A DNA stretch of 64,000 bases. It comes from an uncultured Lachnoclostridium sp. (lineage in GTDB: Bacteria > Bacillota > Clostridia > Lachnospirales > Lachnospiraceae). Of this stretch, positions 47,422 to 50,375 are shown one piece after another (positions within the stretch are counted from its first letter, which is position 1; each line of letters begins with the position of its first letter). Where the stretch lies: positions 31,430-95,429 of the forward strand of contig CAKNJS010000006.1 in the NCBI GenBank assembly GCA_930986645.1, written 5' to 3'. A model generated the notes under the pieces. It was given only the letters and a program-made list of their open reading frames with translations. It searched no databases and was not told the origin of the DNA. The translations under genes were made by a program, and so were the position numbers.

Positions 47422-48162
47422 CTATTCATATCTCACCATTTCCCGCTTTAGTCTTTTCATGATTTTTTTCTCCAGACGCGAAATATATGACTGTGAAATG
47501 CCAAGCATATCCGCTACTTCTTTCTGGGTTTTTTCTCTTCCCTCCGGGTTATCCAGACCGAAACGCATTTTTACGATCATTTTTTCTCTCCCGGACAGTT
47601 TGTTGAGAGCGCGTACGAGAAGTTTTCTCTCTGCCTCATTCTCCAGATCCCGGTATATTGTATCCTCCTCTGTCCCCAGTATATCCGACAGAAGCAGTTC
47701 ATTTCCGTCCCAGTCCACATTGAGAGGCTCATCAATAGATACTTCCAGTTTTGTCTTACTGTTCCGGCGCAGATACATTAAAATCTCATTTTCAATACAT
47801 CTCGACGCATATGTGGCCAATTTAATCTTTTTTGCGGGATTAAAAGTATTAATTGCTTTAATAAGTCCGATTGTTCCAATTGAAATCAGATCTTCCACTC
47901 CTACTCCGGTATTATCAAATTTCTTTGCAATATAGACGACAAGACGGAGATTATGTTCTATAAGCGCCTTTTTGGCTGTCTCATCGTTGTCCGTACCCAG
48001 ACGGCTGATCATCTCCTTCTCCTGTACGCCTTCCAGCGGAGGCGGCAGAATTTCCGTCCCTCCTATGTAATGAATTTCCTTTCCATTTCCAAATATCAGG
48101 CTTCTGATATCCGGCATAATCCGCATCCTGAACTGATGCGGAACCGCTGCATTAACTAACAT
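47422..48162 (-). CDS. sigE: Sporulation sigma factor SigE (pro-form)
   Basis: Mother-cell sigma factor of 246 residues, made as inactive pro-SigE and cleaved by SpoIIGA. The N-terminal segment leads into [13 protein letters not shown], which matches the pro-sequence cleavage region of Bacillus SigE. Region 2 is [34 protein letters not shown] with [16 protein letters not shown]. Region 4 ends [33 protein letters not shown] 48162 after GGGAGGAGACTGG is preferred to the upstream TTG. It follows spoIIGA by 30 bp. sigG, adjacent to sigE in Bacillus, is not next to it here. Confidence 0.94.
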
Positions 48163-48192
48163 CCAGTCTCCTCCCAAATTTATATTTTGATT

Positions 48193-48978
48193 TCATCCGG
48201 AAAAAATCGCCGGATTCAGGATCATCTCATATTCTCTGTTACCGGACAGATATGCTTCCCCGATTCCCACCAGAGGATTGTCTATCCATCTGTCTTCTTC
48301 CATATGAATACATATCTTTTTCAGCCGGAACACCTTCATAATTGATTCGCCTCCCACACAACGGTACGGGATCAGACGAAATCCTTTTTCCGGTTCCCCG
48401 CAGCTCCAGATTTCTGCCGCTGTCTCCGGATCGATAACACTCACCGGATCCCCCGTATAGCAGTCTCGCAGCTCGTTTCCCGTATCCAGAAGCGCTTTTA
48501 TGGACTTTTGTCCATATTCTGTATATAGAGTCACTTTCAGAATTTTTCCCTGCTGCCTGCAAATATGAGAAACAATCTTCCATAATTGCAGAAGCACTGC
48601 TCCGCTTAATACGGCAGCCGCGTAAAAAAGACTGGCATACCGCATATAAGGACGCATAACCTGCAAGATGCCGCCCATAAAGAATGCTGACACATACAGG
48701 AACAGAAGTGCGCGGATAAACTGAGGCAGTCCGGTAATCCGAAGGCCCGCAAACAGCATTGCACTGTCCACCAGCGTGTGAAACAGGATCAGGCGCAGCA
48801 CGGACGGAAAAGGAAGTACAATAACCAGACAGGTTAAAAGGCTTCCTGCCGCGCCTCCCAAAAGGAGGCGTCCATATGACCGTCCGTTGTTTATTATACG
48901 GTTTACAATCAGGAGAAGAAGACTGTCAAGCATGAAGTTTTCCAGAAAAAACACATCTATGTACAATTCATAGTACAT
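48193..48978 (-). CDS. spoIIGA: SpoIIGA, pro-SigE processing aspartic protease
   Basis: A 261-residue membrane protein. The first 150 residues hold five or so hydrophobic helices beginning YYELYIDVFFLENFMLDSLLLLIV. The soluble C-terminal half carries the aspartyl protease motif KALLDTGNELRD and later FRLIPYRCVGGES. The family processes pro-SigE at the forespore septum after activation by SpoIIR. It is co-transcribed with sigE from a Spo0A-type promoter. Confidence 0.93.
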   Translation of the reverse strand: MYYELYIDVFFLENFMLDSLLLLIVNRIINNGRSYGRLLLGGAAGSLLTCLVIVLPFPSVLRLILFHTLVDSAMLFAGLRITGLPQFIRALLFLYVSAFFMGGILQVMRPYMRYASLFYAAAVLSGAVLLQLWKIVSHICRQQGKILKVTLYTEYGQKSIKALLDTGNELRDCYTGDPVSVIDPETAAEIWSCGEPEKGFRLIPYRCVGGESIMKVFRLKKICIHMEEDRWIDNPLVGIGEAYLSGNREYEMILNPAIFSG

Positions 48979-49015
48979 ACCTCACCTTCTTTCCTCCGGT
49001 AACGATCCGGAAATT

Positions 49016-49049
49016 ATTATATCTCCCGGCCGGGAAAAAAATTTGTCAG
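49016..49049 (-). promoter_or_regulatory. spoIIG promoter with 22-bp spacer
   Basis: TATAAT at 49016-49021 is preceded on the minus strand by CTGACA at 49044-49049, separated by exactly 22 bp. The Bacillus subtilis spoIIG promoter is known for the same abnormal 22-bp spacing and needs Spo0A. The spacer here contains a perfect CCCGGCCGGG palindrome. Confidence 0.82.
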
Positions 49050-49075
49050 ATAATGACGGAAACACAGAAATATCT

Positions 49076-49082
49076 TTCGACA
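49076..49082 (-). promoter_or_regulatory. Spo0A binding site (0A box) of spoIIG
   Basis: The minus strand reads TGTCGAA, an exact 0A-box core, about 70 bp upstream of the predicted start. Weaker matches (TGACGGA, TGTCAGA on the plus strand) lie between it and the -35. Confidence 0.75.
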
Positions 49083-49120
49083 GCAGAAAGTGCCGGTATG
49101 GAACAAAACAGTAAGTATCA

Positions 49121-49156
49121 AAAAAAGCCCTGTACGGTATCCCGTACAGAGCTTTT
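49121..49156 (-). terminator. ftsZ terminator
   Basis: Minus-strand AAAAGCTCTGTACGGGATACCGTACAGGGCTTTTTTT forms a stem of CTGTACGG/CCGTACAG with flanking pairs, followed by a run of seven T. The opposite strand also has a short T-run. Confidence 0.85.
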
Positions 49157-49187: not shown

Positions 49188-50375
49188 CTATTTCTTGAAG
49201 AAATCCGGAATCTTAATAGACTGCTCTTTTACAGTGCTGGACGGAGTCCTCGGCTGAAGTGTCGGCATTGTTCCGCCCTGCGGTCTTGATGAAGCTGTGC
49301 TTGCTGCAGTTCTCTTATTTTCACTGTCAAGACGGCTTCTTACCGGTGACTCGCCATTAGGCAGGATAGAGCCCACCTTCTGCTGTCCTTCCAGTCTTGC
49401 CTTTAACTTGGAAGCGCTTCCGCCTACATTATGTAAGCCTGTGGCAATAACAGTGATTGTACACTCATCAGACTTCGTATCATCATACATAGCACCGAAG
49501 ATAATACTTGCACTCTCTCCTGCAAGCTCCTGTACATAATCAGCTGCATCAGATGCATCCATAAGAGTAATATCACCAGATACATTGACAATGACGTTGG
49601 ATGCTCCCTGAATTGTTGTCTCAAGCAGCGGGCTTGCAACCGCTTCTTTCACAGCCTCGAGAGCCTTATCGTCACCGCGTCCGGAACCGATACCGATATG
49701 TGCAATACCCTTGTCCTTCATAACTGTCTGGATATCTGCGAAATCCAGATTGATCAGAGACGGCACATTGATCAGGTCTGTAATACCCTGAATACCCTGC
49801 TGAAGCACTTCATCCGCTTTCTTAAGAGCTTCAGGCATTGTCGTGCGTCTGTCAACGACTTCAAGAAGTTTATCATTCGGAATCACGATAATCGTGTCAA
49901 CATTCTCTTTTAATTTATCAATACCGTTCAGCGCATTCTGCATTCTTGTTTTGGATTCAAAACGGAACGGCTTTGTTACTACACCTACGGTCAGAGCCCC
50001 CTGCTCTTTTGCAATACGTGCAATGACCGGAGCTGCTCCGGTACCTGTTCCGCCGCCCATACCGCAGGTAACGAATACCATATCCGCACCTTTCAGAGCT
50101 GCTGAAATTTCTTCTGAACTTTCCTCTGCTGCTTTCTCTCCTACCTCAGGCTGTGCACCGGCGCCAAGCCCCTTTGTAAGTTTCTCACCGATCTGCATAA
50201 GAGTCGGTGCCTTGCAGAGCTGCAGAGCCTGCTTATCTGTATTTACTGCGATAAATTCCACACCCGCAATCTGCTCGTCGATCATGCGGTTCACAGCGTT
50301 ATTTCCGCCGCCGCCTACTCCGACAACAATTATTCTTGCGGCCGCTTCCGATTCGTTGGTTTTAATTTCTAACAA
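49188..50375 (-). CDS. ftsZ: Cell division GTPase FtsZ
   Basis: Tubulin homologue of 395 residues that forms the Z-ring. The GTP tubulin signature is [13 protein letters not shown] near residue 107, and the T7 synergy loop reads LINLDFADI. The globular core ends near residue 320. A Ser/Thr/Pro-rich linker and the conserved C-terminal peptide [10 protein letters not shown] follow, which normally binds SepF, FtsA or other partners. It has its own promoter and terminator, between ftsQ and spoIIGA. ftsA is not adjacent. Confidence 0.97.

Follow-up and report, generated by a model that had tools for sequence, protein, structure and literature searches.

A candidate Spo0A-activated promoter with an over-wide spacer upstream of spoIIGA in a Mediterraneibacter-type genome, and a probable promoter-straddling terminator in its relatives

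The spoIIG promoter of Bacillus subtilis has a 22-bp spacer. A site with a spacer of the same length lies upstream of spoIIGA in the window, the 64,000-nucleotide stretch of DNA from an uncultured Lachnoclostridium sp. that was analysed here, and this raises the question of which parts of such a promoter are conserved in distant relatives: the exact spacing, the sequence within the spacer or the binding sites for Spo0A. Mediterraneibacter (Lachnospiraceae) contained the nearest named relatives of the window genome.

The spoIIGA promoter region of the window

The promoter-like site was located directly 5' of spoIIGA, with the gene for a sigma factor next, and the features of this region, in the direction of transcription, were as follows.

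49188..50375, minus strand: ftsZ (PF00091, PF12327), codirectional upstream gene
49120..49153, minus strand: intrinsic terminator separating ftsZ from the promoter; its stem of 12 bp, including one G-T pair, is followed by a T-run
49076..49082, minus strand: perfect 0A box TGTCGAA, predicted strong upstream Spo0A site
49054..49060, plus strand: second weak 0A box TGACGGA, 6/7 against TGNCGAA
49044..49050, plus strand: weak 0A box TGTCAGA (the reversed -35), extended as TTTGTCAGA at 49042..49050, 8/9 against TTTGTCRAA
49044..49049, minus strand: -35-like hexamer CTGACA
49022..49043, minus strand: spacer AATTTTTTTCCCGGCCGGGAGA, exactly 22 bp
49025..49034, unstranded: spacer palindrome CCCGGCCGGG, not conserved
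49016..49021, minus strand: -10 hexamer TATAAT, invariant in 50/50 genus loci
48994..49012, minus strand: short 5' leader hairpin TTCCGG-ATCGTTA-CCGGAG, z of -1.0, with similar sequence in close relatives
48193..48978, minus strand: spoIIGA (PF03419, E value of 1.8e-56), ATG at 48978
47422..48177 (predicted start), minus strand: sigma-70 factor (PF04542, PF04545), sigE by position, directly behind spoIIGA

The first-pass annotation had described a 22-bp gap between CTGACA and TATAAT, a TGTCGAA about 70 bp upstream of the start and weaker boxes near the -35, and each of these was borne out. The hexamers occupied 49049-49044 and 49021-49016 of the minus strand, and TGTCGAA (49082-49076, same strand) was at about -70 from the predicted start and about 100 bp from the ATG. 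Both weaker boxes were on the plus strand, in tandem and in the same orientation, 10 bp apart. From the positions of these elements, we infer that the spoIIGA transcript starts near 49008.

In the single window sequence, the promoter motifs were near the level of chance. A pair of the CTGACA-22-TATAAT type with one mismatch or less and a gap of 22 bp was found once in the window compared to 0.35 expected, TGTCGAA was found 11 times compared to 9.5 expected, and a genome search for CTGACA-N16-28-TATAAT gave 7 matches compared to 8 for a reversed control pattern. The motifs gain significance because the hexamer, TATAAT and TGTCGAA were in register in 50/50 homologous loci of the genus, as was GACAAA.

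The core 8-bp stem of the terminator upstream of the promoter was also detected by a stem scan (listed on the plus strand), and a terminator-like stem was found upstream of the spoIIGA promoter in 37/50 genus loci. Transcription of ftsZ would be kept out of the spoIIGA-sigE operon by this terminator. The short leader hairpin was not significant by energy, as its z value was only -1.0. A conserved leader segment, approximating GAGTGCCAAATCGATTTAGTACC and nearly self-complementary, was observed between the start site and the ribosome-binding site in several genera (loci L008, L009, L017, L079, L081, L082, L216, L222, L232 and L235).

One clear Spo0A gene was present in the genome, and the DNA-binding domain of its product matched solved Spo0A domains with an E value of 2e-48, the stretch SRVERAIRHAIEVAWSRG being unchanged. 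It is very likely that the site drives the spoIIGA-sigE operon of a Mediterraneibacter-type member of the Lachnospiraceae, as a promoter that is used by the housekeeping sigma factor and activated by Spo0A~P. Spo0A~P would occupy the strong TGTCGAA site and the two weak boxes, which are in tandem at a distance of one helical turn; the nearer box overlaps the -35. The promoter would be weak without Spo0A~P, because a normal sigma contact would need the -35-like element to be 4 to 5 bp closer to the -10, and would become active once Spo0A~P holds sigma region 4 beside this element. This mechanism, in which Spo0A~P places sigma on an over-wide promoter, is proposed by analogy with work on B. subtilis.

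Against this reading, a similar promoter was not found within 1.5 kb of spoIIE in the genus, and a search of the genome for TGACAAA-N18-20-TATAAT gave 4 matches compared to 2 in the control and hence no wider regulon. The SpoIIE protein of the genus (L313, at G000:C1:14200-15540, and L305 to L334) fell below the family cut-off in 58/58 genomes; the match started at about model position 314 and the open frame began only some 15 to 70 codons before the match, and therefore the long N-terminal membrane part of SpoIIE seems to be missing.

Conservation of the spacing and of the 0A boxes

Conservation was examined in 240 regions upstream of SpoIIGA homologues (50 genus loci, 90 family loci with a single locus for each genus, 70 class loci and 30 phylum loci). 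The best TTGACA/TATAAT pair at any gap from 12 to 30 bp was recorded, with ties shared. A gap of 21 bp scored best in about 188 regions and one of 22 bp in about 21, with a share of 0.7 for 17 bp, and a reverse-strand control of the same scan was flat, with no peak at 21 bp. The promoters of groES, included as a control in which a peak at 17 bp would be expected, had best scores near the chance level and were uninformative. A second scan, limited to gaps of 20 to 23 bp, located 233 sites, with 198 at 21 bp, 28 at 22 bp, 3 at 20 bp and 4 at 23 bp. Within the window genus (n = 50), 36 loci had a spacer of 21 bp and 14 had one of 22 bp, and a quick tree of the SpoIIGA sequences of the genus, 20 rows of which were short, called for at least six switches between the two lengths; hence, the exact 22 bp is not needed.

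The odd, long spacing of spoIIG is thus real and deep, and to that extent the earlier proposal of a deeply conserved spacing held across a phylum-wide sample. The part of the proposal that took 22 bp as the conserved and required value did not, because the modal conserved spacing is 21 bp and 22 bp is a recurrent +1 variant. With a spacing of 21 to 22 bp nearly fixed across this sample, what was an oddity of B. subtilis becomes a general rule for the joint action of Spo0A and the housekeeping sigma factor at the onset of mother-cell development.

At the -35, conservation extended beyond the hexamer over an entire 9-bp 0A box. In the family set, T at position 0 was conserved in 90% of loci, A at position 7 in 77% and A at position 8 in 88%, and position 2 of the hexamer was T or C. 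As read from the alignments, the conserved unit matches the 0A box TTTGTCRAA in reverse complement. The bases C(-5) and A(-4), which precede C5 and A6 by exactly 10 bp, were present in 100% of genus loci and in 87% and 80%, respectively, of the phylum set, as would be seen for a second weak 0A box in tandem; conservation was weaker in the family (57% and 38%) and class (59% and 48%) sets.

The perfect distal box behaved differently from the weak boxes. TGTCGAA was found at -33 or -32 from the hexamer in 50/50 genus loci, and the view that this box has been kept was right within the genus; a perfect box was present in only 42/90 family genera, in 2/63 class loci and in 1/30 phylum loci. Where perfect boxes occurred in the family, two distances from the hexamer were preferred, -33/-32 and -43/-42, one helical turn apart. 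The widely conserved part of the promoter is therefore the weak boxes at the -35 rather than the perfect distal box. It is the weak tandem boxes at the -35 that are important, and the exact 22 bp, the palindrome and the perfect distal box are unimportant.

Different readings of these elements have to be weighed against the proposed promoter. It is possible, if somewhat doubtful, that CTGACA serves as a 0A box only, with sigma region 4 docking 4 to 5 bp downstream, on or near a conserved AAATTT, in which case the "22-bp spacer" would be the distance from Spo0A to the -10. The conservation of the flanks that a 0A box requires (T at 0, A at 7 and 8) is in keeping with such a role, as are the T or C at hexamer position 2 that TTTGTCRAA permits (TCGACA and ACGACA included) and a conserved T run at positions 10 to 12, where a -35 at 17 bp would end. 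However, TTGACA was the commonest hexamer of the family (51/90), beyond what a 0A box alone explains, and AAATTT matches a -35 poorly. Far less credible is an ordinary vegetative promoter with a coincidentally long spacer and the true start elsewhere, for example by read-through from ftsZ. The near-chance frequency of the motif in one sequence would fit this, but the architecture was nearly invariant across 50 species, and the sole promoter-like site in the region with a gap of 16 to 18 bp (TAGAAA-18-TAAAAT, 9/12) scored no more than shuffles and lies before the terminator.

The palindrome within the spacer had been noted as a possible site of bending or binding. It is present, at 49034-49025, and CCCGGCCGGG occurs in five copies in the genome, but this species alone among 50 genus members carries it in the spoIIGA promoter. 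A sister species (L039) has CCTGATCAGG at the matching place in the spacer, two compensated pairs away from CCCGGCCGGG. Palindromes of 10 bp were thus found in 2/50 genus spacers and, overall, in 6/233 spacers compared to 4.6 in shuffles; a function in bending or binding was unsupported by these frequencies. The palindrome was rejected as a conserved signal, since the other 48 genus members are without one and its frequency is near that of shuffles. A functional palindrome, whether as a protein-binding or bending site or as an arm that pairs with the leader in read-through RNA, is unlikely. The different palindrome at the equivalent place in the sister species speaks for a function, as does the folding of the palindrome, in read-through RNA of the window, onto the leader and the ribosome-binding site (a modest z of -2.06, with 7/200 shuffles as good). 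The specificity of this pairing was, however, doubtful, with 17.5% of swapped partners (a swap fraction of 0.175 for the spacer arm against the ribosome-binding site) and 3/20 spacer shuffles doing as well, and the window has a separate terminator. On the sequences compared, the palindrome most likely arose by neutral drift, as it lies in the middle of the spacer, where the sequence is variable.

A probable promoter-straddling terminator in relatives

In a group of Lachnospiraceae with aroD upstream, plus a few other lineages, the spacer showed a different pattern. The loci were L086, L383 to L404, L069, L070, L078, L206, L228, L231, L234, L237, L247, L272 and L281. The spacer and the -10 make up the 5' arm of a terminator-like hairpin, the 3' arm coincides with the ribosome-binding site of spoIIGA or immediately precedes it, and a U-run comes next. 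In one group of the relatives, exemplified by L070 (AACACCCCCGATCCCC ... GGGATCGGGGGTGTT), the spacer and the ribosome-binding site of spoIIGA constitute a long inverted repeat. Because the spacer is upstream of the predicted start, only read-through RNA would contain both arms. We consider it likely that, in these relatives, the long spoIIG spacer was recruited on more than one occasion to form the 5' arm of a promoter-straddling terminator, which would stop vegetative read-through from the upstream housekeeping gene and block translation while Spo0A-driven transcripts escape.

Duplexes between a locus's own arms had energies of -25 to -32 kcal/mol in this group, far stronger than those of swapped arms (swap fraction of 0 to 0.04). 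The read-through RNA of L086 gave a fold with a z value of -7.1 (0/200 shuffles as good), compared to +0.4 and no such fold for the native RNA. In an alignment of the arms with 18 rows, 81% of cells paired compared to 75% in shuffled alignments (0/500 reached the observed value) and at most 59% when the arms were slid, counts that are not probabilities, since the rows are related. Seven pairs were changed on both sides, and 56/460 pairs among the arms were G-U; the tolerance of such pairs points to RNA.

A T run of at least four between the ribosome-binding site and the start codon was present in 28/30 loci with strong arms compared to 10/187 with weak arms. By the scan, a separate upstream terminator was detected in 0/28 strong family loci compared to 24/57 weak genera, and, with one locus per genus, in 0/11 compared to 24/57 (Fisher P value of 0.006, relatedness being ignored). 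Most loci checked had aroD as the upstream gene, whereas L228 had a GH13-type gene, L272 had pfkA and L247 had, as judged by C-terminal sequence, an ftsZ without a terminator of its own. When arms that end at a T-run were searched for, the same set was recovered together with L281 and L397, the control arm of L397 also being strong; the weakest matches of this search (L213, L147, L072, L125, L253 and L057) are probably due to chance. The loops, at about 50 to 100 nt, are unusually long for an intrinsic terminator. Judged by their sequence features, these loci probably carry promoter-straddling terminators, which may in addition cover the ribosome-binding site.

The window itself is without this device: no T-run of four precedes the ATG, and a separate terminator is present at 49153-49120. 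A read-through hairpin in the window's own genus was considered and rejected, there being no genus-wide enrichment. If the straddling terminator is real, it would be unusually compact, a single DNA segment acting as a promoter, as an arm of the terminator and as a lock on translation, and it would guard vegetative cells against accidental sigma-E.

Comparison with known systems

The window promoter joins a known promoter type, and the straddling terminator in the relatives is the unexpected part. In B. subtilis, the distal 0A site lies further upstream than that of the window (about -70). The spoIIG promoter of that species resembles the window promoter in its operon, its long spacer, its strong distal and weak boxes near the -35 and its housekeeping sigma factor, likenesses that are in part general background. 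It differs from the clostridial promoters, whose conserved spacing is 21 bp with a 22-bp variant. For the B. subtilis spoIIG promoter, which uses sigma-A and has Spo0A~P as its activator, two later papers (PMC12090719 and PMC3485338) cite Baldus 1994, Bird 1996 and Schyns 1997.

For Clostridioides difficile, one report describes a mapped sigma-A start of spoIIGA with GTGACA and TATAAT boxes and a 240-fold reduction of sigE without Spo0A (PMC3789822), and another describes in vitro binding of the Spo0A DNA-binding domain, with low affinity, to DNA upstream of spoIIGA (PMC3485338). By analogy, these results speak for a Spo0A~P-activated promoter in the window. The C. difficile promoter is like that of the window in having a -35-like box (GTGACA there) and TATAAT upstream of spoIIGA, with a link to Spo0A that is experimental there, and differs in the low affinity of its Spo0A site.

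No description of a spoIIGA read-through hairpin was found in the literature searched, a scope that left most subscription journals outside. Fold-back protection is known from the IS10 and IS50 transposases and from late genes of phage T4, where transcripts from outside hide the ribosome-binding site and the native start lies inside the hairpin. These cases differ in that they are not Spo0A promoters and are not known to have a terminator geometry. The logic of a read-through hairpin has already been proposed for sigG of B. subtilis (PMC5942855). Like the putative device of the relatives, the sigG hairpin is large, can form only in RNA from an upstream promoter and covers the ribosome-binding site (PMC5942855). 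The relatives differ from it in that one putative arm consists of the spacer and -10 of the promoter itself, the other arm precedes a U-run and spoIIGA is the gene concerned.
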